Source: an uncultured Pelagibacteraceae bacterium (GTDB lineage Bacteria > Pseudomonadota > Alphaproteobacteria > Pelagibacterales > Pelagibacteraceae). From it: a stretch of DNA of 52,500 nt. The notes below the pieces were generated by a model. The model made no database searches. It was not told the origin of the DNA and was given only the letters and a program-made list of their open reading frames with translations. Positions 23,355 to 52,004 of this stretch are shown here, piece by piece (the first letter of the stretch is position 1; each line of letters begins with the position of its first letter). The stretch is from contig CACNSS010000001.1 of assembly GCA_902623215.1 (NCBI GenBank), forward strand, positions 1 through 52,500, in the 5' to 3' direction. A program made the position numbers and the translations under genes.

Positions 23355-24155
23355 TCATTTTTGCCACCTTCCTCTATAATTTTTATAAACATCTATTTCT
23401 ACATCTTGCAGACCATAATCTGTCTCTTTTTTTTCTTTAATCATTTTCAATTTTTTTTCATAATCACAAATTATCTTTAATTCATGTGGTAAAATTGCAA
23501 ACTTATTATCTCTTCCATCTAGTGATTTATCTATAGTAAAATGTTTTTCAATAACAGTAGCACCATGAGATAAAGCAAAAATCGCATCTTCGACCCCTTC
23601 GGCGTGTCCAGAGTAACCTACTTTATTGAAATTTCTTTTAATATAATAAAATTTTTCAAAATTTAAGTTTTTATAATCTAGTGGATAAGAACTTACACAA
23701 TGCAAAAGTGTTAAATTTTTAAAATTTTTTAATTTAATTAAGTTATCTAATTCCACCCGCTTCAATGCTCCAGTTGAAACTATTACATTATCAAAATCTT
23801 TTAAACTTTTTTTTATCAAATCAAGATCATAAGCCTCTACAGATGGGATTTTTATAAATTTCCTTGAAACACTTTTTAATAATTCGTACCCCTTGCTATT
23901 GAAAACAGAGGCAAAACAAATTAAATTTTTACTATTACAGTAATTGTATAATTCTCTATATTTTTTCTCATCTAAATAGGCCCTATTATAAATCTCTCTT
24001 CTACCATCTTGATCCCAAGCACCTTCTACAAGATTTTTTGGATCCCAGATTTGAAATTTTACACACTTGCAGCCTGATTCGGATGCTTTATCGATCATTT
24101 TTTTTGCAAGCTTTAAATCGCCCAAAAAGTTCCAACCAATTTCAGCAATAATCAT
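23355..24155 (-). CDS. neuB: NeuB-family nonulosonic acid synthase lacking the SAF domain
   Basis: 266 residues. The TIM-barrel motifs are present: IIAEIGWNFLGD at the start, CVKFQIW, IPSVEAYDL, VSTGALKRVE, LLHCVSSYPL, GYSGHAEGVE and VIEKHFTIDKSLDGRDNKF. These bind phosphoenolpyruvate, metal and the hexosamine substrate. The usual C-terminal antifreeze-like SAF domain (about 80 residues) is absent; the protein ends YKNYRGRWQK soon after the barrel. It would condense PEP with an N-acylmannosamine-like sugar. Its 5' end is divergent from the DUF4910-like gene. Confidence 0.82.
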   Translation of the reverse strand: MIIAEIGWNFLGDLKLAKKMIDKASESGCKCVKFQIWDPKNLVEGAWDQDGRREIYNRAYLDEKKYRELYNYCNSKNLICFASVFNSKGYELLKSVSRKFIKIPSVEAYDLDLIKKSLKDFDNVIVSTGALKRVELDNLIKLKNFKNLTLLHCVSSYPLDYKNLNFEKFYYIKRNFNKVGYSGHAEGVEDAIFALSHGATVIEKHFTIDKSLDGRDNKFAILPHELKIICDYEKKLKMIKEKKETDYGLQDVEIDVYKNYRGRWQK

Positions 24156-24274: not shown

Positions 24275-25546
24275 ATGATTAAATTGTTGAAAAAACTTTT
24301 TCCCATAAACAGAAGTTTAACAGGCAAAGGAACAGAATTAACACTAAGACTTTTGAAAAAAAAAATTCCATCGTTAAGAATAAAGAAGGTAAAGAGTGGA
24401 AAAAAAGTCTTTGATTGGATAATTCCAAAGGAATGGAATGTGTCAGAAGCTTTTATAAAATATCAAAATAAAAAAATTATCGATTTTAAAAAAAATAATT
24501 TACACTTGGTGGGATATTCCTATCCTATTCACAAGAAATTATCCTTTACAAAGTTAAAAAAAAAACTTCATTTTTTAAGATCACAACCCAGTGCGATACC
24601 TTATGTAACATCTTATTACCAAAAAAATTGGGGTTTTTGTTTAAGTTATAATAATTTTAAAAGACTTAATAAGAAAGGTCTTTACGAAGTAAAAATTAAT
24701 TCGAAACTTTCAAAAGGCTATCTAAATTACGGTGAATTAATAAAAAAAGGTAAATCAAAAAAAGAAATTATATTGACGACTTATATATGCCATCCCTCAA
24801 TGGCTAATAACGAATTATCTGGACCGTGTGTTTTAACATATCTATCCAAATGGTTGATAAGAAGAAAAACTAAATACACTTATAGAATAATATTTGCTCC
24901 AGAAACTATAGGTGCCATAAATTATATACATTCTAACATTAAAAAGTTAAAAAAAGTATTTGCAGGTCTTAACTTTACTTGTTTAGGTGGTAAAGACATA
25001 TTTACTTTTTTGCCATCGAAATTTGAGAATTCATACATTGATCAATTAATCTTAAATACTCTAAAAAAAAATAATATAAATTATAAATTATCCAATTGGT
25101 TGAATAGAGGTAGTGATGAGCGACAATATTGTTGGCCAAAAATTAATATACCAATGGCATCGATTATGAAGTCAAAATATCATGATTATAAAGAATACCA
25201 TACATCATTGGATAATTTAATATTCGTCAAAGATAAGAATTTATATAAATCTCTTAATATTTATAAAAAAATAATTTTAGAAATTGAAAAAGATATGTTT
25301 CCAATAACAAATACAATTTGTGAACCCAATCTTGGAAAAAGAAAATTGTATGAAACATTAAGTAAAAAAAAATTTAGACACCAAAGGTCTAAAACCTTAT
25401 TAAGTATTCTATCCTATTCAGATGGTAAAAACGGGATTTTTAATATTTCTAAAAAAGTTAAAATAGAAACAGAAAAATTTAATTCTTATATAAAGATTTT
25501 AGAAAAAAATAATCTAATTAAATTATCCGATACTATAAACTTTTAA
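24275..25546 (+). CDS. DUF4910/aminopeptidase-like protein (M28-like fold) of polysaccharide cluster
   Basis: 423 residues. It begins with the FPINRSLTGKG block shared by DUF2172/DUF4910 proteins, then DWIIPKEWNV and YSYPIHKKLSF. The peptidase-like core has TYICHPSMANNELSGP, IIFAPETIGAI, NRGSDERQYCWP and YKEYHTSLDN, whose His, Asp/Glu and final His match the zinc ligands of M28-type aminopeptidases. A winged-helix-like tail follows (about 350-423). Members occur in sugar clusters, where the substrate is unknown to me; amide hydrolysis on an amino sugar is one possibility. It overlaps the convergent gene by 24 bp. Confidence 0.72.
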   Translation: MIKLLKKLFPINRSLTGKGTELTLRLLKKKIPSLRIKKVKSGKKVFDWIIPKEWNVSEAFIKYQNKKIIDFKKNNLHLVGYSYPIHKKLSFTKLKKKLHFLRSQPSAIPYVTSYYQKNWGFCLSYNNFKRLNKKGLYEVKINSKLSKGYLNYGELIKKGKSKKEIILTTYICHPSMANNELSGPCVLTYLSKWLIRRKTKYTYRIIFAPETIGAINYIHSNIKKLKKVFAGLNFTCLGGKDIFTFLPSKFENSYIDQLILNTLKKNNINYKLSNWLNRGSDERQYCWPKINIPMASIMKSKYHDYKEYHTSLDNLIFVKDKNLYKSLNIYKKIILEIEKDMFPITNTICEPNLGKRKLYETLSKKKFRHQRSKTLLSILSYSDGKNGIFNISKKVKIETEKFNSYIKILEKNNLIKLSDTINF

Positions 25547-26881
25547 AATTTTATTAGTTAAAATTTTAAAACTTACGTTTTTAAACTTACTATCAAATCT
25601 CTGAAAATCAGCTAAATCTTTTTTGATAAACTCATGTTTAAAATCTGGAAATTTCGTGAATTTTATAATTTGTCTTTTATTCAAAATTTTTTTAATTTTT
25701 CTAAAATAATTTATAAATAATGCGTAAGTTTCTAATTTATTAAAAGAATTATAATTCTTAATATCTTTATTGAAATTAATTTTACAAAAATGGTCAACAA
25801 TATTTTCAAAACTAAGTTTTTTATCAATAATCAGATCAATTCTATAATCAAACTCATTTTTCTCAATTTTATATGTATGTTTAAAATTGTCTCTAATCAA
25901 ATTCAAAACTTCCTCATTTTTTGAAGCTTTTATACCTAAAGAATTCACAAACTCAGAATCAAAATTATCTTCATAAATAGTTGGAACAAATGAAATTACT
26001 TTTTTTTTGTTAACAAAAGCCTCAATTGCAGAAGTGCAACCTGATTGGATTAAACATTCTGAGAAATTAATGAATTCAGATAAGGTTTCATCCTTAATTA
26101 TTTTAATATTTGTTGATTTTGTTCTTTTTAACAATTTATTCCAGGTTTCAATATCCTCGTTTGGGTGTGGTCTCACAACTATGTCATGTCCAATTAAATT
26201 TTCCGATAAATAGATTATCAATTTAATAAAAAAAGGGATCTGTTCTAAATTCTGTCTAAATTTTTGAAAAAAATTTTTCTCCTTATATAACAAAAACTCT
26301 TCTTTCTCAGAGTCTGGATTAATTCTAATATCATACTGTGAAGCCAAACTTCTAAAACTTATTGGGTATTGAATGCTGGAGGATATAAGAATAAAATTCC
26401 TTAGATTTTTCTTTTTAAGAAAAGAACTTTTTTTTTCATAGAAATTCTGACTACATAAATCAAATCTTGGAGAGCCGGTTCTGTAAAAAATTTTTTTTTC
26501 AAATTTTTTGTTTAAAACTTCAAAATCACGTCGACCAAAGCAAAAAAACTTTTCTATATAATTTAAAGACTCACTAGAAGAAAACCTTCTTTTAATAAAT
26601 TCATAATAATCATCATACATTATACCCGCTTCTTCATCTTGAGTAGTAATTAAACAACCTAATGATTTAAGTTTTTTGTAAAATTCAATGTTAAACTTAG
26701 AGCAATTAGCATCTTTAAGATGATAAATTCCTGGTAAAAGTTTATTTTGGTTTAACAAATTTAAAGTTTCTTGTCTGGATAATAAAAAAACAGTAAATCC
26801 TTTTAGTGCTGCTTCAGCAGCTAATAATAAACGTGCTTTAAATTCTCTAGTATAAACTTCTACCTCAAGATAAAGAATCAT
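25523..26881 (-). CDS. Surface carbohydrate biosynthesis protein (surf_polysacc/TIGR04396-like putative transferase)
   Basis: 452 residues. The N terminus LYLEVEVYTREFKARLLLA with LPGIYHLKDAN downstream resembles the family signature. The C-terminal half has VVRPHPNEDIETW and CLIQSGCTSAIEAFVNKKKVISFVP, the donor-binding pattern of CDP-glycerol- or sialyltransferase-like GT-B folds. It probably transfers a sugar or polyol phosphate; the exact reaction is unknown. It overlaps the AAC(3)-like gene by 17 bp and converges on the DUF4910-like gene. Confidence 0.65.
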   Translation of the reverse strand: MILYLEVEVYTREFKARLLLAAEAALKGFTVFLLSRQETLNLLNQNKLLPGIYHLKDANCSKFNIEFYKKLKSLGCLITTQDEEAGIMYDDYYEFIKRRFSSSESLNYIEKFFCFGRRDFEVLNKKFEKKIFYRTGSPRFDLCSQNFYEKKSSFLKKKNLRNFILISSSIQYPISFRSLASQYDIRINPDSEKEEFLLYKEKNFFQKFRQNLEQIPFFIKLIIYLSENLIGHDIVVRPHPNEDIETWNKLLKRTKSTNIKIIKDETLSEFINFSECLIQSGCTSAIEAFVNKKKVISFVPTIYEDNFDSEFVNSLGIKASKNEEVLNLIRDNFKHTYKIEKNEFDYRIDLIIDKKLSFENIVDHFCKINFNKDIKNYNSFNKLETYALFINYFRKIKKILNKRQIIKFTKFPDFKHEFIKKDLADFQRFDSKFKNVSFKILTNKILKVYSIG

Positions 26882-27620
26882 AAATTAAAAAGTTTTTTTG
26901 TTTTTTATAATACTCAAATACAATTTTTTTTATATTTGTGAGACTTATTAAGCCAAAATGACCATAACCATACTTATTTGTTATGAAATATTTTTTTTTT
27001 ACCGCTACTTTATGTAAATTTTCAAAATTTGCATGAAATAATTTTTTATCTTTTCTTAAATAAATAATACTTTCTAATTTAATTTTTTTTTTTTTAGAAA
27101 TCATTATTCCTTTATATTTTTTGTCTTTTCTGTAATCTACTTTTAATAATCTCTCAAAATAATGGACAAATGTTGTTCCCGAGTCCATATTAATATTCAG
27201 GATTTTTCCATTGAGTTTTGTAAATTTTTCAAAAAAGGACCCTTTTCCATAAGAATTAATCGTTGGATTTTTAGCTAAAAAAAAAGCCTTTTCACCGATA
27301 ATGGCTACGGATAAGTTTGGATCAACATATTTTTTTGATACATTGAGTTTACGACAATATTCTGAGAAATAACCACACTCAGATTTTGAGTTTTCTACAT
27401 CGTAAATTTTTTTTTTACAAAAAGAATATGTATATGTTGGTATAGCCAAAGTTCCTCTAGGACCAATGACTTCTAAAATTGCATTTAATAAATTTTTACA
27501 AGTTAATTCCATATCTTCAGCACTCTCAAATTTTTTCAAAAGACTTACATCGCAATGAATAAATATATTATCTTTTTTTTTTAATCCAATTTGTTTTAAA
27601 CACTTAATAATTTTTTTCAT
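26865..27620 (-). CDS. AAC(3)-family N-acyltransferase
   Basis: 251 residues. Family motifs are IFIHCDVSLL, VIGPRGTLAIPTYTYSF, the later VDPNLSVAIIGEKA and INSYGKGSFFEKF, and INMDSGTTFVHYFE with the conserved His. These match aminoglycoside 3-N-acetyltransferase-like enzymes, which use acyl-CoA to acylate an amine. In glycan clusters such proteins are best read as amino-sugar N-acyltransferases, not as resistance genes. It is downstream of an acyl-activating ligase and a VOC protein in one overlapping run, so it may transfer an unusual acyl group. It could alternatively supply the acetyl group missing from the WbpD step. Confidence 0.78.
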   Translation of the reverse strand: MKKIIKCLKQIGLKKKDNIFIHCDVSLLKKFESAEDMELTCKNLLNAILEVIGPRGTLAIPTYTYSFCKKKIYDVENSKSECGYFSEYCRKLNVSKKYVDPNLSVAIIGEKAFFLAKNPTINSYGKGSFFEKFTKLNGKILNINMDSGTTFVHYFERLLKVDYRKDKKYKGIMISKKKKIKLESIIYLRKDKKLFHANFENLHKVAVKKKYFITNKYGYGHFGLISLTNIKKIVFEYYKKQKNFLIYDSLS

Positions 27621-28219
27621 TTTGTAAATTCTAAGATCTCATAAATAACATTGCCCTCAGATCTAATTAATAGAATTTTAAGTTTTATTCTATTAATTAC
27701 AAAATTAAAAATTTTTGAGCATTCAATTTTGTGCTTCAATAATTCTTTACTTATTTGTTTTAGATTAACAGCAACGAAGCAGATTGCTACGCAACCGACA
27801 TTATCCAAATAATACTTATTAAAAAATTTTTTTTTTAATTGAAAATTATATTTCTTATCATCAAAAATTGATTTAAAGGGGAAATTATTTTTTCTAATTT
27901 TAATCTTCAATATACCCTCTAAAAATTTTTTTTCTTTTTTAACAGAATTTGTATTAATAATTATATTATTTTTTCTATGTACAATAACATCTACCTTGTT
28001 GCCAAATTTCTTATAATTCGTAATTTCAATTGAAGGTAATTTATTTTTTGGCTTAAAAAATGTCAAATCATGATCTTTATTATTATATAAAAGGAACTTA
28101 TTTTTTTCAGGATGGTTTTTTTTTCTTATTTTAAAAATTTTTTGATAAATTTTTTTTGATAAAAAATTATTTTTTTTACCATCTGAATTATATATTATGT
28201 GATCAATTCCTATTATCAT
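27617..28219 (-). CDS. VOC (glyoxalase/epimerase) superfamily-like protein
   Basis: 200 residues. It opens GIDHIIYNS, the start of a VOC module, and ends LLIRSEGNVIYEILEF, where a metal-ligand Glu commonly lies. A second DNVGCVAICFVAVNL strand in the middle suggests paired beta-alpha-beta modules. The fold is used by methylmalonyl-CoA epimerase, glyoxalase I and dioxygenases. It lies between an AMP-forming ligase and an AAC(3)-like acyltransferase with 4- and 17-bp overlaps, so action on an acyl thioester or side-chain precursor is plausible, but this is inferred from position only. Confidence 0.5.
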   Translation of the reverse strand: MIIGIDHIIYNSDGKKNNFLSKKIYQKIFKIRKKNHPEKNKFLLYNNKDHDLTFFKPKNKLPSIEITNYKKFGNKVDVIVHRKNNIIINTNSVKKEKKFLEGILKIKIRKNNFPFKSIFDDKKYNFQLKKKFFNKYYLDNVGCVAICFVAVNLKQISKELLKHKIECSKIFNFVINRIKLKILLIRSEGNVIYEILEFTK

Positions 28220-29537
28220 TTTTCTCTAACAGCTTAGTTTTTTGAATCTTGCCGATCTTATTTTTAGTAAATTTGTTTAAATATATAAATTTATTAGGCC
28301 AATGTACTTTTGAAAGTTTATCATATATTTGGTTCTCGATTTTTTCTCTCCATTTTTTTTTATCAACTTTTAAGAAACATACAATTTGTTCATTAAGTGT
28401 TTTATTGTTTTTTTTTCCAACTATAGCAACCTCTTTAACTCCGTTTATATTTTTTATTTTATCCTCTATATATTTTGGGCTAATATTTAATCCATCTTTA
28501 ATGATAATTTCTTTTTTTCTATCGAGTAAAATTAAATCGTCATTTTGTAATTTTCCAATATCTCCAGATGAAAAATAAATTTTTGTGTTTTTTTGAAATT
28601 TATTATCTCTGAATGTTCCTTTAAATTTATATTTAGACTTAATTAATAATTCTCTTGATCTAGAAAGGTTTATTTCAACTCCCGTCAATAGTTTTCCAGA
28701 GCCTTTTTTTTTATCAATGCTGCAAGAAACCAATAACATCTCTGTTGACCCGTAACTTTCTAGTGGATAAATCCTAAAATTTTTGAAAAATTTCTTTTTT
28801 TCATCTAGATGAAATGGAGCTGTCCCTACAAATATTTTTTTTAAAAATTTATTTCTTTTTAAATCAATTGCGCTCATTTCATTTAAAAAATTTATTATTG
28901 ATGGTGAAAGCCAAGTATAATCTATTTTATAACTTTCAATATAACTCCAAAAATTTATCAAATTATAATTTGGAATTTTTTTTGAAATTATTATCTTTGA
29001 ACCAGCTAACAATGGGCACAAAGTTGAATTAAGAAAACCTGCCATATAAGACATTGGAAAAACCTGTAGGAAATTTCCTTTTTTAATCTTATTAAGTCTA
29101 TTAAATGCCAAAGCATTTTGAATTAAGCTTTGATGTGCATGTAGTATTGCCTTAGGTTCTGACGTTGTTCCAGATGTAAAAAAAATTCCAAAGTTTTTCA
29201 ATTTTGTTTTTTTTTTCGTTAAATAATCGATAGAATTTTTTTTAATTATGTAATTTGGCCGAGTAATATTAATTAAATTTTTTTTCTCCATAGAACTGTA
29301 ATGTTGTCCTAGAGGTAAGAAGCCAATTTTTAATTCTATACAAGCTAAGTAGGCTACAACAAGCTCTAAACTGTCCTCTAAATTCAATGCAAAAATTTTT
29401 TCTTTATAAAACTTAAGTTTTAGTATTTTATTACTGAAATTATGAACTCTCATCATCAATTCTTCATAAGTCAATGACTTATTTGATGTCACTATACAGG
29501 GTGAGCTTCTAAATTTTTCCAGATAATTTAGTATCAT
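28203..29537 (-). CDS. AMP-forming acyl-CoA/acyl-ACP synthetase (ANL superfamily)
   Basis: 444 residues, a compact member. Seen: FFTSGTTSEPKAILHAH (P-loop-like A3 motif), LESYGSTEML (A5), FSSGDIG (A7) and LLDRKKEIIIKDGLNISPKYIE (A8 hinge) with a C-terminal domain; the KIGKIQKTKL end holds the catalytic lysine (A10). It would adenylate a carboxylic acid and pass it to CoA or an acyl carrier protein. The aldolase gene abuts upstream, and the VOC gene overlaps by 17 bp downstream. A candidate ACP lies at 35906-36157. Confidence 0.85.
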   Translation of the reverse strand: MILNYLEKFRSSPCIVTSNKSLTYEELMMRVHNFSNKILKLKFYKEKIFALNLEDSLELVVAYLACIELKIGFLPLGQHYSSMEKKNLINITRPNYIIKKNSIDYLTKKKTKLKNFGIFFTSGTTSEPKAILHAHQSLIQNALAFNRLNKIKKGNFLQVFPMSYMAGFLNSTLCPLLAGSKIIISKKIPNYNLINFWSYIESYKIDYTWLSPSIINFLNEMSAIDLKRNKFLKKIFVGTAPFHLDEKKKFFKNFRIYPLESYGSTEMLLVSCSIDKKKGSGKLLTGVEINLSRSRELLIKSKYKFKGTFRDNKFQKNTKIYFSSGDIGKLQNDDLILLDRKKEIIIKDGLNISPKYIEDKIKNINGVKEVAIVGKKNNKTLNEQIVCFLKVDKKKWREKIENQIYDKLSKVHWPNKFIYLNKFTKNKIGKIQKTKLLEKNDNRN

Positions 29538-30596
29538 CTATAAATTTTGTTCATTTATATAAAAATGATTATAAATCTTTTTCCAGCTGCCTTTGTTTTT
29601 TTTATTTTTCTGTAATTTGTTACAAATTTTTTTCACCAATTTTTCCGGAGCATCAATTTTCGTAATTTTAGTAATTTCTTTTATTAATATTCTAGGATCA
29701 ATTTTATACTTTTTTGAAAAATTTTCTATAATTGGCAAATAACTACTATGAAATTTTGAAATCCCACATAAAAAATCGATAGATGAAAAACCCCTAATAG
29801 CCAATGGTTTAATTTTTTTTTCAGAGAACTCCGTTAATCTTAAATAATCATATTTAATTTTATTTTTTTTTGATAAATGATATGAAAGTATTTCAGTATT
29901 TGCATTTCCCGAACTTCTACCTATTCCCTGGAGTGAGGAGTCAATCAAAGAAAACTTTAATTCATTGGCTAAGATTGAGTTTTGTAAAGCAAAACCAGTA
30001 TTATTATGACCATGGAATCCTAATTTAATTTTTTTATTTATTTTTCTTATCTCTTTGTGATATTCTAAAATTTCTTTTGGCATCATACCACCAGCAGAGT
30101 CAACGATATAAATTATATCTGCTCCATTTTTGTAAGTTTCATTTGTAATTTTGGCGAATTTTTTTGAGTCCATTGCATAAGATTTCATAAAATTTACACA
30201 AGTAAATAATTTCAATTTTTTTGATAAATTTATATAATCAAATGCTTTCTTGTAATTATTAACGTCAATACCTATTCTTATAAAATCTAAACCATTACCC
30301 TTTGCAGAATAGAAATCATCTTTATTAGCTATTCCAGGGATAGCAAATACTCCAATCATTGATTTTTTGGTACTTTTTTTTGCTTCGATTATATAGTCTT
30401 CATCGGTTTCAAAAGCTCTAAATTTTGTTGACCGTGAAGCACCGAGTCCAATGCCGTGCCCAACTTCAATGAAATTAATTCCAGACTTTTCTAATGTTGC
30501 ACAAACTTCTCTTGTATTTTTTTTTGTAAAGCCAAAATTGTTTAGATAGCTTCCATCACGCAGTGTGCAATCAAGTATTTGGGGGGACAAAAACAT
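29538..30596 (-). CDS. HMGL-like/4-hydroxy-2-oxovalerate aldolase-type enzyme
   Basis: 352 residues. The N terminus ILDCTLRDGSYLNNFGF is the HMGL/DmpG signature with the metal-ligand Asp and Arg. IEVGHGIGLGAS, YIVDSAGGMMP and LGFHGHNNTGFALQNS (the two metal-ligand His) complete the barrel; GIGRSSGNANTE follows. It would cleave or form a C-C bond between pyruvate (or an acyl-CoA) and an aldehyde. It is first in the run aldolase, ligase, VOC, AAC(3), surface transferase, all nearly touching. No acetaldehyde dehydrogenase partner is present, so a catabolic meta-cleavage role is unlikely. Confidence 0.82.
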   Translation of the reverse strand: MFLSPQILDCTLRDGSYLNNFGFTKKNTREVCATLEKSGINFIEVGHGIGLGASRSTKFRAFETDEDYIIEAKKSTKKSMIGVFAIPGIANKDDFYSAKGNGLDFIRIGIDVNNYKKAFDYINLSKKLKLFTCVNFMKSYAMDSKKFAKITNETYKNGADIIYIVDSAGGMMPKEILEYHKEIRKINKKIKLGFHGHNNTGFALQNSILANELKFSLIDSSLQGIGRSSGNANTEILSYHLSKKNKIKYDYLRLTEFSEKKIKPLAIRGFSSIDFLCGISKFHSSYLPIIENFSKKYKIDPRILIKEITKITKIDAPEKLVKKICNKLQKNKKNKGSWKKIYNHFYINEQNL

Positions 30597-30723
30597 AAGT
30601 AATTACTGTTTACATCATTAAAAATATAATTAAAAGATAGAATTTGTTAATAATATCATTCATATTAATTAATAAATCATATTAGATAAAATTTATGAAT
30701 TGGATATTTGTAACTCTAAAATA

Positions 30724-31644
30724 ATGAAATTTAAGAAAATAAATCAAAATGTTCTTTTTCATCATTTTCATTCAAAAAATAAATTTTACTACAGTCCTGG
30801 CTCATTAACGAAAGATAATTTTTATAAATTTATAAAAGAAAATAAGAATAAAATAAAAAATTCCAATAATATAGAGAAAAAAAATAATAATAAATTCTTT
30901 CTAACATTTGATGATGGTCTAAAATCTCAATACGAAATAGCTCTTCCAATATTAGAGGAAAATAAAATTAAGTCTTTTTTTTTCTTTTTTACAAATCATT
31001 TTAATAGTAATGACTTCACAATCGAATGTATACGATATTTTAAATACAAATACTATTTAAATACAAAATTATTTTTTAATCATTTTATGGAAACTTTTAA
31101 AGACAAACACGATAAAAAAATAAATTTTGGGAATGTAAATTTAAAAAAGTTATTTAAATTTTATAAAAAACACTCTCCATATTATTCAAAAGAAGAAATT
31201 TATATCAAAATTTTAAGAGATAATATTTTAAGTGAATCACAATATTTAAAAATTATAAAAAAAATGATGAATGATAAAAATGTAGATATTTCTAAACTTT
31301 CAAAAAAGTTATATATGAATAAGTCAGAGATAAAAAATCTTTCAAGACTACAACACACTATTGGTTTACATTCACACTCACATAACCACAAAAATAAAAA
31401 TTTTGGTTACAACAGAGAATTTAATGAATTTAAAAAAAATAAATTAATTTTAGAAAAAATAATTAATAAAAAAATTATCTCAGCAAGTTATCCTTTTGGA
31501 AATTTCACCAATAATTCAGAAAGAATTTTAAAAAAACTTGGTATAAAATTTTCTTTTCTTAAAAATGAAAAATTTAAGAATACTTATAAAAATAATAATT
31601 TATTTTTACCAAGAAAAAATATATCAGAGCTTTTATTAAAATGA
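30724..31644 (+). CDS. Polysaccharide deacetylase (NodB-like)
   Basis: 306 residues from the ATG at 30724; an in-frame TTG at 30700 would add eight residues. NodB motif 1 is FLTFDDGLKSQ (Asp-Asp pair), motif 2 is GLHSHSHNHKN (metal-ligand His residues), and SYPFGNFTNNS is a motif 3 equivalent. Such enzymes remove N- or O-acetyl groups from sugars. It is the first gene of a tightly packed plus-strand operon that continues with a formyltransferase, overlapping by 4 bp, so freeing an amine for formylation is an attractive reading. No signal peptide is seen, so it acts in the cytoplasm. Confidence 0.8.
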   Translation: MKFKKINQNVLFHHFHSKNKFYYSPGSLTKDNFYKFIKENKNKIKNSNNIEKKNNNKFFLTFDDGLKSQYEIALPILEENKIKSFFFFFTNHFNSNDFTIECIRYFKYKYYLNTKLFFNHFMETFKDKHDKKINFGNVNLKKLFKFYKKHSPYYSKEEIYIKILRDNILSESQYLKIIKKMMNDKNVDISKLSKKLYMNKSEIKNLSRLQHTIGLHSHSHNHKNKNFGYNREFNEFKKNKLILEKIINKKIISASYPFGNFTNNSERILKKLGIKFSFLKNEKFKNTYKNNNLFLPRKNISELLLK

Positions 31645-32408
31645 ATATTACTATAATTACTGGTAACTCCGAAAGACATAAATATTTAATTAAAATCTTA
31701 TCTCATCATAACTTAAAACTAATAATTGAGAAAAAAAAAAATTTTAGTTATTTGTTTAATAACAAACAAAAAATAAGCATAGAAGCTAAAAATTATTTTA
31801 AAAAAGTTTTACACGCAGAAAAAAAAATTTTTGGCAAAATCATATTAAAAAAAAAAATGTATAAAAAAAAAATTGTAGTTGAATATGGTGAATTAAACGA
31901 CAAAAATTTTTCTGACTTAAAAAGTTTTTTAGAGAGCGACCTGTTTATCGTTTTTGGCTCCTCATTTATAAAAGGTTCCTTAGCAAAGTTTTTATATGAA
32001 AAAAAATGTATAAACATTCATATGGGTATATCGCCTTATTATAAAGGCACAAATTGTAACTTTTGGGCGACAATTGACGGAAATTTTCATTTGGTAGGTG
32101 CAACTGTTCACTTGCTGTCAAAAAAAATTGATGGTGGACCAATTCTTTACCATTCAGTTTCCAAACCAGTTAGTGATTCAAATTTATATTCAATGAAAAA
32201 TGTAAAAAGTGTAATTTTAAGTTTAAAACAAAAAATAGATAACAATTCATTACTCAAAATTAAACCAAGAGAACAAAAAAAAAATCAGGTAATTAGATAT
32301 ACAAAAAATAAAGATATTGGTATAAATAATTTTAGAAAATATCCAAACAAAGTAAAAAAATTTAGTTTTAATAAAAAATTACTTATAAAACCTGTAATGA
32401 TGATTTGA
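31641..32408 (+). CDS. Formyltransferase-fold protein (sugar N-formyltransferase candidate)
   Basis: 255 residues. The catalytic triad of N10-formyltetrahydrofolate formyltransferases is visible: Asn125 and His127 in INIHMGISPYYKG, and Asp164 in IDGGPIL. The FWATIDGN and GATVHLL strands also match. It would formylate the amine of an amino sugar, as VioF- or ArnA-type enzymes do. ATG overlaps the deacetylase stop by 4 bp. A second family member with the same triad lies at 51393-52004. Confidence 0.8.
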   Translation: MNITIITGNSERHKYLIKILSHHNLKLIIEKKKNFSYLFNNKQKISIEAKNYFKKVLHAEKKIFGKIILKKKMYKKKIVVEYGELNDKNFSDLKSFLESDLFIVFGSSFIKGSLAKFLYEKKCINIHMGISPYYKGTNCNFWATIDGNFHLVGATVHLLSKKIDGGPILYHSVSKPVSDSNLYSMKNVKSVILSLKQKIDNNSLLKIKPREQKKNQVIRYTKNKDIGINNFRKYPNKVKKFSFNKKLLIKPVMMI

Positions 32409-32413
32409 ATGAT

Positions 32414-33577
32414 ATGAAGAAAAAAATTGCAATTACAATAAATAATAGAGCAAACTACGCAAGGATTAAGACCTTTATTTTAGCAATGAAAAAATACAAA
32501 AATGTTGAATTAATTATTATTTTAGGTGCATCAAGTGTTTTAGAAAAATTTGGCAACTTAGAAAATATTTTAAAAAAGGATGGAATAAAAATTAATCATA
32601 AAATTTATACGATTGTTGAAGGTGACAAACCAGTGGCAATGGCAAAATCAACAGCTTTAGAAATAAATGAACTGTCAAATATTTTTGAAAAAGAAAAACC
32701 AGACATGGCTTTAGCTATCGCAGATAGATTCGAAACAATGTCAGTAGCAATTACAGCGAGTTATATGAATATTTTTTTAATACATACTCAAGGAGGTGAA
32801 ATCACAGGGTCTATAGATGAAAGTGTAAGACATTCAATAACAAAATTAGCTAACCTTCACTTTCCATCTAATAAGAAAGCTGCCAAAAATATATTAAAAA
32901 TGGGAGAGGAAAAAAAATCAATTTTTATCACTGGCTGTCCCTCTGTTGATTTAGCAAGATTGGTGTCTAATAAAGAATTAAATATTAAAAATTTATTATT
33001 GGAAAATAAATTTTCTTATTCAGGAGAATATCAAATTGAAGACTTCAAAAATTACTGTATTGTAGTACAACATCCGGTAACCACAGAATATAAAAGCACT
33101 AAAAAACAAATACTTGAGACTATAAAAGCGATTAGTCAATCAAATAAAAAGTTTTTGTGGTTATGGCCAAATGTAGACTCTGGTTCCGACATAATTTCTA
33201 AACAATTAAGAATTTTTCGAGAAAAAGGTGATCTAGATAACGTAATTTTTATTAAAAATTTAAGTCCAGAAAATTTTTACATTTTACTAAATAACTCTAA
33301 GTGTATTATAGGTAACTCCAGTGTTGGAATAAGAGAAGGTGCATATCTTGGAATTCCATGTTTAAATATTGGTAATAGACAAAATTTAAGAGAGAAAGGT
33401 CCAAATGTTAAAAATTGTATCCACAATTCAAATGAAATTTTAAAAAATTTAAATTCTATGTATGGTAAAAGATTTAAAAAATCTTTAATTTACGGAAATG
33501 GACAAACTGGTAAAAAAATGGCAAAAATAGTTTCGAGAATTAAAAATTTTAAAACACAAAAAACGTTGAACTATTAA
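32414..33577 (+). CDS. neuC: UDP-N-acetylglucosamine 2-epimerase, hydrolysing type (NeuC/LegG-like)
   Basis: 387 residues from the ATG at 32414; an in-frame TTG at 32405 overlaps the upstream stop, but family members start close to the KKKIAITINNRANYA motif. Other blocks: DRFETMSVAI, IHTQGGEITGSIDESVRH, FITGCPSVDLA, VQHPVTTEY and GNSSVGIREG, as in NeuC. It inverts C2 and releases the nucleotide, giving free ManNAc-type sugar for the NeuB-like synthase at 23355-24155. It sits in the middle of the five-gene plus-strand operon. Confidence 0.87.
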   Translation: MKKKIAITINNRANYARIKTFILAMKKYKNVELIIILGASSVLEKFGNLENILKKDGIKINHKIYTIVEGDKPVAMAKSTALEINELSNIFEKEKPDMALAIADRFETMSVAITASYMNIFLIHTQGGEITGSIDESVRHSITKLANLHFPSNKKAAKNILKMGEEKKSIFITGCPSVDLARLVSNKELNIKNLLLENKFSYSGEYQIEDFKNYCIVVQHPVTTEYKSTKKQILETIKAISQSNKKFLWLWPNVDSGSDIISKQLRIFREKGDLDNVIFIKNLSPENFYILLNNSKCIIGNSSVGIREGAYLGIPCLNIGNRQNLREKGPNVKNCIHNSNEILKNLNSMYGKRFKKSLIYGNGQTGKKMAKIVSRIKNFKTQKTLNY

Positions 33578-33578
33578 A

Positions 33579-34343
33579 ATGAATTCACTCGATCAACATG
33601 AAAAGTATCTAAAAAAAAACGTATTTTTTACAAAAAGTAAATGGCCTCATTTCAATTTATTATTTGAGGACATTAACATATTAAAAAAAAAAAGGATTGA
33701 TAATATTCTATCTTTAGAAAGAGGTGGTTTATACGGATCTATAAGTATTTTCAAACCATATTTTGCTAAAAAAAATTTTACCTCAATAGATTGCAGTAGC
33801 CATAAAATTAAAAAAAGAGGTGCCTATAATCAAAAATATGTTTTGTCAGATAAAATTATAAAAAAAAAAATTGATTATTTCAAAAACTATAAAAAACTTG
33901 GGCTTAAAAAAAATTTTTATGATCTAATAATCATTCCAAATTTATTACATCATATTTTTGATATCAAAAAATTACTTGACCAATGTTACATCTCTTTAAA
34001 AAAAGGGGGTGAACTTTACATATTTGAGCCAACTGTGCGCGAAATACACCAAATACCAGATGATTATTTTAGGTTTACACCCTTCGGATTAAAAGAACTT
34101 TTAAAAAAATCTAAATTTAAAAAAATTACTTATAAATTTTCCGGTGGTCCATTTTCTGCCTCACTCTATTGTCTAGATCAAGCAGCACAATTTTTACCAA
34201 GAAAAAAATCTGAAGAATTTAAAAAAAAACTAATTAGTGGAAATTTCAAAAATTTTCTTAATATGGAAAGTAAATTTAAAACAAATCGATTTAGAAAACA
34301 TACGGTTTTTCCAATGAGTTTTTCAATTATATCGAGGAAATAA
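33579..34343 (+). CDS. Class I SAM-dependent methyltransferase-like protein
   Basis: 254 residues. The FYDLIIIPNLLHHIFD block and SLKKGGELYIFEP motif are typical of methyltransferase motifs II-III. The glycine-rich motif I is weak (ILSLERGGLYGS), so cofactor binding may be altered. A YFRFTPFGLKELLKKSKF block follows, as in many Methyltransf_11 proteins. It lies 1 bp after neuC and directly before neuA, so it probably modifies the nonulosonic acid or its precursor. Catalysis is not certain. Confidence 0.65.
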   Translation: MNSLDQHEKYLKKNVFFTKSKWPHFNLLFEDINILKKKRIDNILSLERGGLYGSISIFKPYFAKKNFTSIDCSSHKIKKRGAYNQKYVLSDKIIKKKIDYFKNYKKLGLKKNFYDLIIIPNLLHHIFDIKKLLDQCYISLKKGGELYIFEPTVREIHQIPDDYFRFTPFGLKELLKKSKFKKITYKFSGGPFSASLYCLDQAAQFLPRKKSEEFKKKLISGNFKNFLNMESKFKTNRFRKHTVFPMSFSIISRK

Positions 34344-35033
34344 TTGTACAAAAATAAAAGAATTATTGCAATCATAATGGCCAGATCTGGTAGCAAAGGA
34401 TTGAGGAATAAGAATTTAAAAAAAATCAATAATATTTCATTAGTTGGATTAACAGGCAAAATATGTAAAAAAATTAAAATTATTGATAAAAAAATTATCT
34501 CAACAGATTCTTACAAAATTGGACTTGAGGCAAAAAAATATAATTTAGATTTTTTTTTTAAAAGACCCAAAATTTTATCTGGTGGTAAAGTTCCAGACAA
34601 TAAGGTTTTACTCCATGCACTAAAACAAAGTGAAAAATATTATAAACAAAAATTTGATATTATATTGTCATTACCACCAACAACTCCTACTAGATCTAGT
34701 TTTGAAGTAGAGGCATGTTTAAAAAAATTAATGAATAAAAAATATTCAGCTGTTTGGACTATAAATAAAACAAATGATAAATTCCATCCTGAAAAAGCTT
34801 TAACGATATCAGGCGGTAAATTAAAATTTTATGACAAATTTGGACACAAACTAAGGGCAAGACAAGAATTATCAAATATTTATCATAGAAATGGTGTTGC
34901 ATATGCAGTTACTAGACGACTAATTATTAATGGTAAATTAATAGATAATAAATCAAGTTACTTTGAATGTAAGAAAAAACATTTGTCAATTGACACTATC
35001 GAGGATCTTAATATTGCTGAGAAATTATTTTAA
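34344..35033 (+). CDS. neuA: CMP-acylneuraminate cytidylyltransferase (NeuA-like)
   Basis: 229 residues. IIAIIMARSGSKGLRNKNL contains the complete nucleotide loop (residues 13-24). LSLPPTTPTRS is the substrate block, and YHRNGVAYAV plus the final DTIEDLNIAE match the family. It activates a nonulosonic acid with CTP. The start is TTG at 34344, abutting the previous stop, with GAGGA 5 nt upstream; the family N terminus begins right there, so this start is well supported. It overlaps the convergent methyltransferase by 9 bp. Confidence 0.87.
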   Translation: MYKNKRIIAIIMARSGSKGLRNKNLKKINNISLVGLTGKICKKIKIIDKKIISTDSYKIGLEAKKYNLDFFFKRPKILSGGKVPDNKVLLHALKQSEKYYKQKFDIILSLPPTTPTRSSFEVEACLKKLMNKKYSAVWTINKTNDKFHPEKALTISGGKLKFYDKFGHKLRARQELSNIYHRNGVAYAVTRRLIINGKLIDNKSSYFECKKKHLSIDTIEDLNIAEKLF

Positions 35034-35900
35034 ACTGACTATATATAATAAGCTAGTAGATAGCATATGTCTTTCAATATTTTTTTCTATAACTTTAAAT
35101 TTTCTCTTGGGAATTATTTCTTCATAGAGGCCTTTTACTCTTTTACCTATTTTCATGTATTCTATTAAGTGATTTATATTATATTCTTGTAGTCCCCCTT
35201 TATAAACCACTTTCATATTTAATTTTTTAAAAATATAATCTAGACTTTTTTCATTAAAATAAAAATTATGAGACAATCTAAAATCAAATCTTAAAAAATC
35301 AATGCCAATTAAGTACATGTATATATTGTTAAAATTTGGAACTCTAAAAATAATTTTACCCTTAGCCTTTAAGTTTTTTTTTAACTGGCGAATAAAATTA
35401 AGCGGATTTTTTTTATGCTCTAATTCAGCTAATGATATTATTAGATCAAACTTATATTTTGATACTCTTAAATCCTCTAAATTTGAAAAAAAAAGATGTT
35501 TTTTTTCAACATGGCTTCTATAAATTGAGGAGTCTAAACCAGCAGTTAACTTTGCATCTTTTTTAAGATAATCCAATATACTAGCTGCTCCACAATTACT
35601 CTCAAGAACGGATTTATTTTTAAAATTAATTAAATTTTGTATTTTTTTTATCTTTTTTATTTCACGTGGCCTATTAAAAGATTGATATTTTAAAACGCTA
35701 TTATCACCGTCAAAAATTTTTCTAAAAATTTTATTATCTTCTAAGAAACTTTGTCTATCTTTTAGATAACCAACATCGCAATTAATACATTTCAAAATCT
35801 CATATTTTTTTTTGGAGAATTTTTTTCCAATTCTAATTTTATCATTCCACAGTATTTTAATGTTTTTTGATCTACATAAAGGACAGGAGTTTATTTTCAT
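35025..35900 (-). CDS. SAM-dependent methyltransferase with N-terminal zinc knuckle
   Basis: 291 residues. Cysteines C6/C9 and C38/C41 form a probable zinc site. Motif I is VLESNCGAAS, LIISLAELEHKKNPLNFI gives motif II, and KAKGKIIFRVPNFNN motif III. This is the Methyltransf_23-type layout common in O-antigen clusters. It lies 5 bp downstream of the acyl carrier protein gene. The modified sugar or lipid cannot be named. Confidence 0.75.
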   Translation of the reverse strand: MKINSCPLCRSKNIKILWNDKIRIGKKFSKKKYEILKCINCDVGYLKDRQSFLEDNKIFRKIFDGDNSVLKYQSFNRPREIKKIKKIQNLINFKNKSVLESNCGAASILDYLKKDAKLTAGLDSSIYRSHVEKKHLFFSNLEDLRVSKYKFDLIISLAELEHKKNPLNFIRQLKKNLKAKGKIIFRVPNFNNIYMYLIGIDFLRFDFRLSHNFYFNEKSLDYIFKKLNMKVVYKGGLQEYNINHLIEYMKIGKRVKGLYEEIIPKRKFKVIEKNIERHMLSTSLLYIVSLK

Positions 35901-35905
35901 TCAAT

Positions 35906-36157
35906 CTATTTCTTATATTTAGTTTGAATTATAATTTTAGCAAATTCTTCGATATTTCTGTAATTTCTTTTTTTAAAATGATTGTTATTAAATTTAATTT
36001 TATATTTTTCTTGAATTGAAAAAATAAAATTTAAGAAATTTAAAGAGTCAATTAGTTTTTTATTAAGATAATCTAATTTAATATTTTTTTTTGTATGTTT
36101 TACATTTAGCTTTTTAGCAAGCCATTTTTCACAATTGATTATCTGTTTATTTTTCAA
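35906..36157 (-). CDS. Acyl carrier protein
   Basis: 83 residues. The motif LIDSLNFLNFIFSIQEKYKI has the Asp-Ser-Leu phosphopantetheine attachment site with the family's hydrophobic helix II. The flanking helices are Lys-rich rather than acidic, which is unusual for an ACP and may reflect the local A-rich composition. It abuts the cyclase-family gene upstream. With an AMP-forming ligase at 28203-29537 and an AAC(3)-like acyltransferase, it may carry an acyl group destined for a sugar. It is too specialised by context to be the fatty-acid ACP. Confidence 0.75.
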   Translation of the reverse strand: MKNKQIINCEKWLAKKLNVKHTKKNIKLDYLNKKLIDSLNFLNFIFSIQEKYKIKFNNNHFKKRNYRNIEEFAKIIIQTKYKK

Positions 36158-36823
36158 TTAATACATTCCTATTGCTCGTAATGGAGATCCATCAGAGCTA
36201 TTAATATTTAATGGAGCTCCACAAAATAAGAAATTCTTTTTTTTAATCTTTTTAAGACTTGTCAAATATTCAACTATTAAAATATTATTAGATAATAAAA
36301 TTTTGTGATTAATTCCATCATTCATGATGTTTTTATCGTTTGGATTATCTGGCTGAGGTGAGTCTAATCCAATAAATCTTATTTTGTTTTTAACCATCCA
36401 TCTGCAGGATTCACTTGATAAGTAGGGGTGATCTGTGTAAAAATTTTTTTTTCCATAGTATCTATCAGTCCAATCAAACCTAAAAATTAAAATTTTATCT
36501 TCAACTTTTGTGTTATTTAATTTAGATTTAAGCTCACTTAAAGAGATCTCAGATCTTTTTTTTTTTGATACAAAATTTAATAAAATTGCTTTACCTATGA
36601 AATGTTTCGCTGGGAATTTATCAATAGTAAATGTGTCTTTACAAAAATGTATAGGTGCATCAACATGTGTACCACTATGACTTCCAATTATTATTTTTCT
36701 GATTTCTCTTTTATCCTTTTTATGTGTAGCTGTTTTTGTAATTTTTACTGTTGGATGTTTAGAGGAGTATTTTTGCATTCCACTCTTAAATTGTAAAGAT
36801 AAATCTATAATTGTTTTTTTCAT
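36158..36823 (-). CDS. Cyclase-family metal hydrolase (kynurenine formamidase-like)
   Basis: 221 residues. The signature HSGTHVDAPIHF (HxGTHxDxPxHF) binds the metal pair; IDLSLQFKSGM at the start and LIFRFDWTDRY and FIGLDSPQPD blocks match the family. These enzymes hydrolyse formamides or cyclise small molecules. Its neighbours are an ACP and a zinc methyltransferase on the same strand. It may process a formylated or acyl intermediate, but no substrate can be given. Confidence 0.82.
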   Translation of the reverse strand: MKKTIIDLSLQFKSGMQKYSSKHPTVKITKTATHKKDKREIRKIIIGSHSGTHVDAPIHFCKDTFTIDKFPAKHFIGKAILLNFVSKKKRSEISLSELKSKLNNTKVEDKILIFRFDWTDRYYGKKNFYTDHPYLSSESCRWMVKNKIRFIGLDSPQPDNPNDKNIMNDGINHKILLSNNILIVEYLTSLKKIKKKNFLFCGAPLNINSSDGSPLRAIGMY

Positions 36824-40006: not shown

Positions 40007-40753
40007 ATGAAAAACCTAATCAAGAAAGCATTTAAATTACGTCAAGATACTCTTAAAAGATTTATCGAAAAAGGTGAGGCACATCTAGGTGGAAGTTTTT
40101 CAATGATAGAAATTATAATAACCCTATATAATAAAATTTTAAAAAAAAATGACAAATTTATACTTAGTAAATCCCATGCCTCATTTCCATTATGTATTTT
40201 ATTAAGAGAAAAAGGATTAAAACCTAAAATATCAACTCATTTAGAAATAGATCCAAAAAATGGAATTCATTGCACCACCGGAAGTTTGGGGCATGGTCTT
40301 CCAATAGCAACCGGAATTGCTTTTGCTCAAAAATTTAGAAATATTAAAGGTAAGATCTTTGTTCTAATAAGCGATGGTGAGTGTCAAGAGGGAACTACTT
40401 GGGAATCTTTGTTGATTGCTTCTAAACATAAATTAGACAACTTATTTGTTCTAGTTGATTATAATAAAATTCAAGCCCTTTCAAAAATAAAAGATGCTTT
40501 ACCTCTTGGAAATCTTTTATCTAAATTTAAAACTTTTAATTTTAATTGTATCAATGTCAAAAATGGACATTCATTTAAGCAAATAAATAACGCTCTCAAA
40601 AAAAAAAGAAAAATAAATAAACCAACAATAATAATATTTAATACCATTAAAGGTAAAGGAATAAAAGAATTTGAAAACGATCCTGTATGGCATGCAAGAA
40701 AGCTGCAAGGAAATGAACTAGATATAGCAAAAAAGAGGTTTAGATTATCGTGA
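40007..40753 (+). CDS. Transketolase, N-terminal (thiamine-diphosphate-binding) subunit
   Basis: 248 residues. It has GEAHLGGSFS, SKSHASFPLC, TGSLGHGLPIATGIA and the thiamine-diphosphate/metal motif SDGECQEGTTWE followed by VDYNKIQ. The end, GKGIKEFENDPVWHARKL, is that of split transketolase A subunits. It pairs with the next gene, which overlaps by 4 bp. It could transfer a two-carbon unit to make a ketoheptose phosphate or a longer ketose for the surface glycan. Confidence 0.88.
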   Translation: MKNLIKKAFKLRQDTLKRFIEKGEAHLGGSFSMIEIIITLYNKILKKNDKFILSKSHASFPLCILLREKGLKPKISTHLEIDPKNGIHCTTGSLGHGLPIATGIAFAQKFRNIKGKIFVLISDGECQEGTTWESLLIASKHKLDNLFVLVDYNKIQALSKIKDALPLGNLLSKFKTFNFNCINVKNGHSFKQINNALKKKRKINKPTIIIFNTIKGKGIKEFENDPVWHARKLQGNELDIAKKRFRLS

Positions 40754-41238
40754 GAAGAAGGTTTGGAAAAATTATTTCTGATTTAGCATCAAAGGATAGA
40801 AAAATAATATTGATTGTAGGAGATATAGGGTATGGGATTTTTGATGAATTTAGAAAAAAACATCCTGATAGATTTTTTAACTTGGGCATTTGCGAACAAA
40901 GCATAATAGGATTTGCATCAGGTGCTGCTCTAAGTGGCTTAAGGCCTTGGGTTTACACAATAACACCCTTTTTAATTGAAAGACCTTTTGAACAAATAAA
41001 ATTAGATGTAAATCAGCAAAAAGCTAATGTAAATCTCGTAGGATTTGCAGATTATCCATCGTTGGGGCCAACTCATTCGGAATTAAATGCAAAAAAATTG
41101 ATGTCATTAATGAGTAATATAAAATCTTTTTTTCCCAAAAATAGTATTGAAACTGAAAAATTTGCAAAGAGAATGAGTAAAATTAACGGACCAACGTTTA
41201 TGAGTTTAAAAACTGATAAAAAAATTCAAAAATGGTAA
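40750..41238 (+). CDS. Transketolase, pyrimidine-binding domain only (short C-terminal subunit)
   Basis: 162 residues, about half the usual split B subunit (near 310). It starts at GTG in a GTGA overlap. LIVGDIGYGIFDEF, RFFNLGICEQSIIGFASGAA (with the catalytic Glu of GICEQ) and SLGPTHSELNA are present. The transketolase C-terminal domain is absent. The following DNA starts the next gene after 6 bp, so no remnant remains. The active site should still form with the A subunit, because the missing domain does not carry the cofactor. Confidence 0.83.
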   Translation: MRRRFGKIISDLASKDRKIILIVGDIGYGIFDEFRKKHPDRFFNLGICEQSIIGFASGAALSGLRPWVYTITPFLIERPFEQIKLDVNQQKANVNLVGFADYPSLGPTHSELNAKKLMSLMSNIKSFFPKNSIETEKFAKRMSKINGPTFMSLKTDKKIQKW

Positions 41239-45411: not shown

Positions 45412-45423
45412 CTTAATATATTT

Positions 45424-51421: not shown

Positions 51422-52004
51422 ATTCAATAACTTTTGTAATTTTTGTTTTCCATTTTTTTTTAAAATTTTTCATAATTTTTTCACTCTCAATACGGTTACG
51501 ATATAAATTATAATTATAATATTTATTTTGATGATAAGGTTCAAATTTTTTTTTAATTATTTTTTTAAAATTCCTTATAAAAAATTTTTCTAAATTTAAA
51601 ATTAAATAATCATGTGTTGACTTGAGCGTTTGTTTTTCTATAGATTTAAACTTAATTTTCTTTTGAACTATTATTTTTCCAGTATCAAAATTTTTATCAA
51701 GATAATGAATCGATATACCAGATGGAAAACCATCTATAAAAGACCATAAATTTGGCATAATGCCTCTACCAAAAGGGAGGTAAGATATGTGAAGATTTAT
51801 TGCAATCTTTGTGGATTTAATCACCTGGTTTGTAATTAGATATGGATAGCCTGATGATATAATCATGTCTATTTTATTTTTTATAATAAAAAATTTTGAA
51901 ACTTTAGAATTTGTGAAGTGTGCAGTATAATTTTCTTTTTCAATAAAATTAATTATTTTACTATTTCTCCATATTGGACCTAAAATAAGAATATTTTTTA
52001 TCAT
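51393..52004 (-). CDS. Formyltransferase-fold protein (sugar N-formyltransferase candidate)
   Basis: 203 residues, short for the family (no C-terminal domain). The triad is Asn70 and His72 in INLHISYLPFGRG and Asp107 in FDTGKII. N-terminal ILILGPIW and MIISSGYPYL are the formyl-transferase Rossmann strands. With the adjacent aminotransferase it suggests amination followed by N-formylation of a keto sugar. It is the first protein-coding gene next to the rRNA end on the minus strand. Confidence 0.78.
   Translation of the reverse strand: MIKNILILGPIWRNSKIINFIEKENYTAHFTNSKVSKFFIIKNKIDMIISSGYPYLITNQVIKSTKIAINLHISYLPFGRGIMPNLWSFIDGFPSGISIHYLDKNFDTGKIIVQKKIKFKSIEKQTLKSTHDYLILNLEKFFIRNFKKIIKKKFEPYHQNKYYNYNLYRNRIESEKIMKNFKKKWKTKITKVIEYGKKNKFIS

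Follow-up and report, generated by a model that had tools for sequence, protein, structure and literature searches.

Gene organisation of the locus

The stretch analysed here, called the window, comprises bases 1-52500 of contig 1 of an uncultured Pelagibacteraceae (SAR11) genome of 959,704 bases that is 77.85% complete. Its GC content is 20-28%, and surface-glycan functions account for most of the named genes outside the set under study. That set consists of six minus-strand genes, encoding an aldolase, an acid ligase, a VOC-type protein, an AAC(3)-fold N-acyltransferase, a small acyl carrier protein (ACP) and a cyclase-family metal hydrolase, and is considered here as a candidate pathway for attaching an acyl group to an amino sugar.

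Four of the genes form one run, transcribed in the order aldolase, ligase, VOC, AAC(3). The first encodes a DmpG/HMGL-like aldolase (29538..30596; PF00682, E 3.6e-26, over cut-off) and is followed with no gap by an AMP-forming acid ligase of the ANL type (28203..29537; PF00501, E 1e-36, 127 bits, over cut-off, together with PF13193). The ligase gene overlaps that of the VOC-type protein (27617..28219) by 17 bases, and the latter overlaps the AAC(3) gene (26865..27620; PF02522, E 8e-24, over cut-off) by 4 bases. The cyclase gene (36158..36823; PF04199, E 2.1e-28, 99.8 bits, over cut-off), a relative of kynurenine formamidase and isatin hydrolase, abuts the ACP gene (35906..36157), the two lying together on the minus strand 5.3 kb upstream of the aldolase. 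Five plus-strand genes (30700-35033), for a polysaccharide deacetylase, a formyltransferase, NeuC, a PseF-like protein and a methyltransferase-like protein, separate the run from this pair. An earlier note on this DNA, made from the sequence alone, had described the overlapping four-gene run and had named the aldolase, ANL ligase, AAC(3) and cyclase families; the open reading frame (ORF) map of the window confirms the coordinates and overlaps, and the Pfam matches bear out the names. The same note had placed the cyclase and ACP at a distance. This is correct for the window, but comparison with other genomes makes them parts of the module and not distant helpers, the cyclase belonging to its most constant part.

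Recurrence in other genomes

The VOC protein was searched in 297 genomes of the host's order and gave one strong match besides the window, in the SAR11 single cell AG-426-E13 (G289; E 9e-30), a genus mate of the window genome. Weak matches in 14 further genomes (E 3e-5 to 9e-4) were all dropped as chance; two that were inspected sit on ORFs that, by eye, we take to be ribosomal proteins S12/S7. Within the 20 kb around the AG-426-E13 match (locus L025) the six genes follow one another without interruption as aldolase-ligase-VOC-cyclase-ACP-AAC(3), so that ligase, ACP and N-acyltransferase are encoded together. Identities between the window and L025 are 57% for the aldolase, 47% for the ligase, 36% for the VOC protein, 58% for the cyclase, 40% for the ACP and 49% for AAC(3).

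When the aldolases of these two SAR11 loci were searched in 398 genomes of the phylum, 38 genomes matched at E <= 1e-25 and four at E <= 1e-90, namely the window's own, G449, G393 and G481. The latter three are of a class other than the host's, which is represented in the sample by 48 genomes. G393 carries aldolase-ligase-VOC-cyclase in that order on one strand (L059). G481 has the same four genes in the same order (L060), with AAC(3), methyltransferase and ACP genes within about 10 kb and with GNAT, DegT, cytidylyltransferase and DUF4910 genes lying between the module genes. In G449 the genes are split between two contigs, the aldolase lying in L058 and VOC-cyclase-ACP in L090. Run on these 398 genomes, a cyclase profile matched six at E <= 1e-30: the four genomes with the aldolase, all at E <= 1e-100, and two more at about 3e-31. 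Because AG-426-E13 and three of the four had supplied the sequences for the profile, what the search shows independently is the presence of the subfamily in G449 and its absence from every other genome sampled.

Within the order (397 genomes) the aldolase matched 35 genomes at E <= 1e-30; the four that reach E <= 1e-90 are the window genome, G289, G277 and G107, in the last of which it forms part of a longer protein. In G277 the contig ends inside the ligase gene and another contig starts inside an AAC(3) gene. The cyclase, sought in six more genomes of the order, is present in G289 and absent from G277, G107, G114, G192 and G152. Members are thus few, with an aldolase of the module type in six genomes of the sample. 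At the eight next-best aldolase loci of the phylum (L061-L068) the other five genes are absent from the stretches read, some of them on short contigs, and the same holds for L080, L081 and L083 of the order, as expected of other aldolases. Viral contigs searched for the aldolase gave no match. A scan of named genomes, which used two short C-terminal peptides only and cannot show absence elsewhere, returned AG-426-E13 and one remote 25% match at whose locus no other module gene was found; the best listed plasmid matches are DmpG-type aldolases (<=35%) and general cyclases.

The recurrence of these genes together in other genomes is more than chance. The earlier note had proposed that conserved co-occurrence be sought, and the genes do recur together. 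The unbroken L025 run, the shared order in L059 and L060, and the coincidence of the aldolase and cyclase subfamilies in the same four genomes argue that the six genes are one module, in keeping with the single acyl pathway that had been suggested. The runs of L025, L059 and L060 showed no shared reductase, so that an oxo group of the product would either stay or be dealt with by the VOC protein. Two additional members were considered and dropped: a methyltransferase (those of L025 and L060 match each other, and the window gene beside ACP matches neither) and the ORF that follows ACP in L090, tried as an acetyltransferase, which has no Pfam match.

Family scores and active-site residues

The aldolase has the fold, length and metal-site residues of the DmpG/BphI 4-hydroxy-2-oxovalerate aldolases (1nvm, 4jn6) and scores below the DmpG cut-offs (TIGR03217, 181.5 against 286 bits; PRK08195, 206.1 against 229 bits). 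Numbered by alignment to DmpG (1nvm), Arg17, Asp18, His200 and His202, which include the metal site, are kept in all six module members. Unlike DmpG and BphI, all six exchange the His/Tyr catalytic pair for Tyr/His, His21 being replaced by Tyr and Tyr291 by His (Tyr17 and His283 in the window), and no DmpF partner was found. His21 is present in the twelve ordinary aldolases of the set; three more aldolases, that of L079 and one each from L082 and L139, have Tyr at this position. In a quick tree the Tyr-type aldolases separate from DmpG with support 1.0.

Two loci with Tyr-type aldolases show further arrangements. L082 pairs an acetaldehyde dehydrogenase (PF09290) with a DmpG carrying its communication domain (L082:7087-9037) in a SAR11 surface locus that also holds NeuB, DUF4910, AAC(3) and ANL ligase genes. 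In L079 a Tyr-type aldolase domain is fused to about 300 residues that have no Pfam match (L079:9156-11072), between NeuB and DegT-like genes.

The ligase keeps its core motifs in four members, which we take to be the P-loop TSGTT, YGxTE (YGS(T/S)E in the SAR11 pair of window and L025) and the C-terminal catalytic Lys. CoA ligases are its best-scoring families; MenE, the o-succinylbenzoate-CoA ligase, is among the nearest, with a score below the equivalog cut-off (TIGR01923, 146 against 330 bits). The window VOC protein has no Pfam match. A profile of five members matches the VOC structures 3huh (E 1.6e-5) and 3hnq (E 4.1e-5) over the C-terminal two thirds only, and the L059 member has a weak match to Glyoxalase_6 (E 0.0021, below cut-off). 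Nineteen columns are invariant in the five members; among them are H7, H50 and E194, candidate ligands that could form a metal site. An AlphaFold2 model of the protein, with one orthologue in the input, had a mean pLDDT of 40 and was not used.

The AAC(3) protein passes PF02522 (84.9 bits, cut-off 25) and shares this fold, with an active-site His-x-x-Glu, with the acetyltransferases 6np1, FrbF (3sma) and YokD (2nyg). H153 and E156, invariant in three members, align with the catalytic His and Glu of these solved relatives. Unlike the known AAC(3) enzymes, it falls far under the resistance equivalogs (NF033082, aminoglycoside 3-N-acetyltransferase, 55.4 bits, cut-off 270) and is partnered with a ligase and an ACP. 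The window ACP gives a weak PP-binding_2 match under the Pfam cut-off (PF00550/PF14573, 18.7 against 32 bits, E 0.0021); its Ser38 lies in a DSL motif whose mid-protein Ser is common to the window protein and two aligned orthologues, and its counterparts in L060 and L090 pass PF00550.

The cyclase shares PF04199 and the metal motif with its solved relatives kynurenine formamidase and isatin hydrolase (4cz1, 4j0n); the motif HxGTHxDAPxHF, H173 and E185 are invariant in four members. It differs from them in gene context and in scoring 81.4 against 223 bits for the formamidase equivalog TIGR03035. These relatives open isatin or cleave formamides, and by analogy such chemistry would suit a lactone or amide intermediate. 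The loss of key catalytic residues had been named in the earlier note as a sign against the pathway; in the alignments the candidate catalytic residues of the module enzymes are kept, except for the two aldolase positions exchanged relative to DmpG.

Neighbours of AAC(3) genes in the order

AAC(3) genes were sought with PF02522 (E <= 1e-6) in the 397 genomes of the order and found in 31, a lower bound because G107 and G114 hold more remote AAC(3) genes that this search does not list. Neighbourhoods were mapped on 29 stretches of up to 13 kb (shorter at contig ends), the whole window and the whole of L025. The gene lists are mechanical, called with profiles built for this analysis; loci of this kind contributed proteins to the ACP and AAC(3) profiles. 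Counts were compared with 5000 shuffles that placed AAC(3) at random among the genes of the same loci.

An ACP, ANL ligase or KASIII gene stands directly beside AAC(3) in 17 of the 31 loci against 5.1 expected, a count that none of the 5000 shuffles reached (p 0.0002). ANL or KASIII alone are direct neighbours in 9 loci (3.0 expected, p 0.0012) and ACP alone in 8 of 31 (2.3 expected, p 0.0018). Widening the reach to five genes abolishes the ACP excess (13 loci, 10.6 expected, p 0.10), so adjacency is what counts. At least one such supply gene is present in 24 of the 31 loci. Checked against Pfam, the seven ANL and two KASIII calls all passed; among nine ACP calls three pass, five are weak (one with an unrelated family scoring better) and one has no match, and a mid-protein DS[LIF] motif is present in all 15 ACP calls.

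The neighbours differ in kind. The VOC-cyclase type of cassette occurs in only the window and L025 among the 31 loci, L079 reads AAC(3)-SDR-KASIII-ACP and L148 AAC(3)-KASIII-SDR-like-ACP, and an ANL ligase gene overlaps AAC(3), or almost touches it, in L082, L132, L135, L136, L137, L150 and L155. Outside the order, in G481, an ACP gene overlaps an AAC(3) gene with an ANL ligase gene upstream (L094). The AAC(3) proteins of the order thus seem to be fed by exchangeable acyl-supply cassettes, that of the window being of the aldolase type. The earlier note had proposed acyl transfer by the AAC(3)-like protein and, by inference, a link to ACP. The former gains support from the company of supply genes, and the latter from the six-gene run of L025 and the loci with ACP directly beside AAC(3).

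Two further arrangements were seen near AAC(3) genes. The G481 row (L094:2516-8063) contains an ANL ligase, a pyridoxal-dependent decarboxylase, a B12-binding/radical SAM protein, the ACP and AAC(3), and would be another acyl or aminoacyl cassette. In L154, an ORF of 1911 amino acids (L154:6878-12613) lies two genes away from AAC(3); a KASIII domain occupies its end only, and the rest has no Pfam match at E 0.05.

These counts suggest ACP-fed acyl transfer as a frequent role of a fold familiar from antibiotic resistance; if so, automatic annotation as 'aminoglycoside acetyltransferase' would be misleading in these genomes. They also yield a testable rule for reading structure from gene content: where a locus of this sort has an ACP, ligase or KASIII gene immediately next to an AAC(3)-like gene, a non-acetyl group on nitrogen would be expected, and the adjoining cassette would hint at which group is attached. 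We know of no described SAR11 surface-glycan chemistry. Few bacteria on Earth are as abundant as those of SAR11 (PMC7029224).

Acceptor sugar and DUF4910

Nonulosonic-acid genes accompany the module in the window (NeuB, NeuC and a CMP-sugar synthetase) and in L025 (NeuB and a PseB-like gene); in L060 cytidylyltransferase and DegT genes are near it. A nonulosonic acid, through one of its amino groups, is probably the acceptor. The window starts at a contig end, and among its scanned proteins neither a GNAT nor a hexapeptide acetyltransferase was seen, which leaves AAC(3) as the sole N-acyltransferase candidate of the window besides two formyltransferases.

A possible companion of the module is the gene for a DUF4910/DUF2172 peptidase-like protein on the plus strand (24275..25546; PF16254, E 7e-89; solved relative 3k9t). 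Its orthologues in L025 and L060 are, as in the window, near the module. Of the 31 AAC(3) loci, 7 have DUF4910 directly beside AAC(3) (3.0 expected, p 0.014), and 5 have it there on the same strand (2.6 expected, p 0.10). In L060 the AAC(3) domain is followed by a C-terminal part weakly like DUF2172/DUF4910 (L060:11414-13063; E 0.0096 and 0.015, below cut-offs), possibly a fusion of two partners. The 2014 structure paper on the DUF4910 protein CA_C2195, in the portions available, gives the family no known activity and suggests transacylation or, in principle, de-acylation (PMC4000134). The neighbourhoods it describes resemble the module in having NeuB, aminosugar acetyltransferases, ACP and a 'glyoxylase' near the DUF4910 gene and in the proposed acyl modification; they differ in that the printed table has no aldolase, ANL ligase or cyclase, and the acetyltransferase class is unstated in the same portions (PMC4000134). 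An acyl role of DUF4910 fits its closeness to the module in three loci, the neighbour count and the weak DUF2172-like tail of the L060 AAC(3) protein. From the AAC(3) cassettes DUF4910 gains a likely partner.

Proposed pathway and alternatives

With a probability that we put at roughly 0.7, the six genes form one module that supplies an acyl group on ACP, for amide transfer by the AAC(3) protein to a nonulosonic acid or its precursor. Probably starting from pyruvate and an aldehyde, the aldolase would make (or trim) a short hydroxy-oxo acid, which the VOC protein and cyclase-type hydrolase would tailor in either order. The ANL ligase would activate the acid and load the phosphopantetheine of the small ACP, from which the AAC(3)-fold protein would shift the acyl group to the amino group of a nonulosonic acid or of a nucleotide-amino-sugar precursor. 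We infer the chemical steps, the acid, ACP rather than CoA as donor, and the acceptor. The flagellar glycan of Treponema denticola, whose side chain is reportedly a polyhydroxy acid, was tried as a lead for the acid; its structure was not found in the papers searched and the lead was not used.

Several observations weigh against this proposal. In G393 neither an AAC(3) match (E <= 0.001) nor, within the stretches examined, an ACP was found, and the AAC(3) match of G449 is weak (E 2.9e-11); these gaps indicate that aldolase-ligase-VOC-cyclase is the constant core, with ACP and AAC(3) the changeable end. Seven of the 31 AAC(3) loci have no supply gene in the stretch read, and the solved AAC(3) relatives, as we understand them, use acetyl-CoA. 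Related Tyr-type aldolases occur without the module in L079, L082 and L139. The aldolase phylogeny proposed in the earlier note separates the Tyr group from DmpG, but within that group the module members are not supported as a clade (node 0.34). Taken as a whole, the earlier reading is partly supported.

The acceptor could be another amino sugar, for example a 4-amino-4,6-dideoxyhexose or a sugar made with the DegT gene at 50222-51427, which we consider possible and on the unlikely side. Besides many other sugar genes the window contains two DegT genes, and NeuB is found in just 12 of the 31 AAC(3) loci. Near AAC(3), NeuB is not enriched (0 against 2.3 expected), nor are cytidylyltransferase (2 against 3.2) and DegT (0 against 1.4). 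The NeuB-type genes near the module itself, in the window and L025, speak for a nonulosonic acid.

The donor may instead be a CoA thioester: the ligase would make an acyl-CoA that AAC(3) uses like its resistance relatives, and ACP would serve another step of the acid's synthesis. The CoA ligases that lead the ligase's family scores and the acetyltransferase nature of the AAC(3) relatives in the PDB favour this donor. The excess of ACP genes directly beside AAC(3), some of them with no ligase found in the stretch (L129, L139, L145, L152), argues for ACP and makes the CoA route unlikely.

It is rather improbable that the aldolase, perhaps with the VOC protein and cyclase, serves the sugar backbone or another sugar, which would leave ligase, ACP and AAC(3) as the acyl branch. 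Such a division would agree with the Tyr-type aldolases of L079, whose neighbours include NeuB and methyltransferase genes and no ligase, VOC or cyclase gene, and with the lack of a separate module clade. It does not account for a gene order, aldolase-ligase-VOC-cyclase, that is the same in two classes, or for aldolase and cyclase subfamilies confined to the same 4 of 398 genomes.

A more detailed joint scheme is a long shot. The Tyr/His DmpG-type aldolase would form a 4-hydroxy-2-oxo acid, a side chain made without fatty-acid synthesis; the VOC protein (H7, H50, E194) would convert it to a 3-hydroxy acid by an HPPD-like oxidative decarboxylation, an idea drawn from just these three invariant residues; the cyclase would open a lactone, AAC(3) would pass the acyl group from ACP to the nonulosonic acid and DUF4910 would remove a former acyl group, AAC(3) and its exchangeable cassettes serving as a general SAR11 device for surface variation. 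A resistance or catabolic cluster, with AAC(3) inactivating aminoglycosides and an aldolase from a meta-cleavage pathway, is suggested by family names only and is hardly credible given the AAC(3) score of 55 bits against a cut-off of 270, the surface-sugar genes on all sides, the absence of an acetaldehyde-dehydrogenase family among the window proteins scanned and the changed His/Tyr pair of the aldolase.

Relation to known systems

Carrier-protein acylation of surface sugars is already a known kind of modification, and the tetronate genes of V. cholerae O1 are an instance of carrier-protein acyl supply in a surface glycan. Flagellin islands of Enterobacteriaceae contain ACP, ligase and reductase genes (Acp, LuxE, LuxC, CaiC, FabG) and thus, like the module, combine an ACP with a CoA-ligase-type enzyme within a surface-sugar locus; unlike it, no aldolase, VOC protein, cyclase or AAC(3) is named in the available portions of that account (PMC4875605). 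The Shewanella sfmABCDE flagellin modification cluster resembles the module in elaborating a pseudaminic-acid-like flagellin glycan. In the available portions of its description it differs in being composed of a NeuB-like protein, a thiamine-pyrophosphate enzyme, an oxoacyl reductase, a methyltransferase and an ATP-grasp protein, and it recalls the six module families only by loose analogy (PMC3765264). In the open-licence literature searched, no description was recognised of the aldolase-ligase-VOC-cyclase-ACP-AAC(3) set or of AAC(3) proteins as carrier-protein acyltransferases.

Other features of the window

At its downstream end the acyl run meets a TIGR04396-type surface carbohydrate gene (25523-26881), which overlaps the AAC(3) gene by 17 bases. 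The NeuB-type nonulosonic acid synthase (23355..24155, minus strand; PF03102, E 5.4e-53) is below the NCBIfam cut-offs. On the plus strand, between the run and the cyclase-ACP pair, lie the NeuC/LegG-type hydrolysing UDP-sugar 2-epimerase (32405..33577; TIGR03568, 357 bits, cut-off 236) and the PseF-like CMP-sugar synthetase (34344..35033; TIGR03584, E 4.7e-25, below its cut-off).

Further from the module, a WbuX-type N-acetyl sugar amidotransferase over its cut-off lies with HisH/HisF-like genes at 5573-8026, a region that probably places an acetamidino group on another sugar. A single gene at 9032-10939 joins an NAD-dependent epimerase/dehydratase domain to C-methyltransferase domains. Within the glycan region a transketolase is encoded as two genes, for the N-terminal and pyrimidine-binding parts (40007-41238), near an HldE-like cytidylyltransferase/PfkB gene at 43894-45486.

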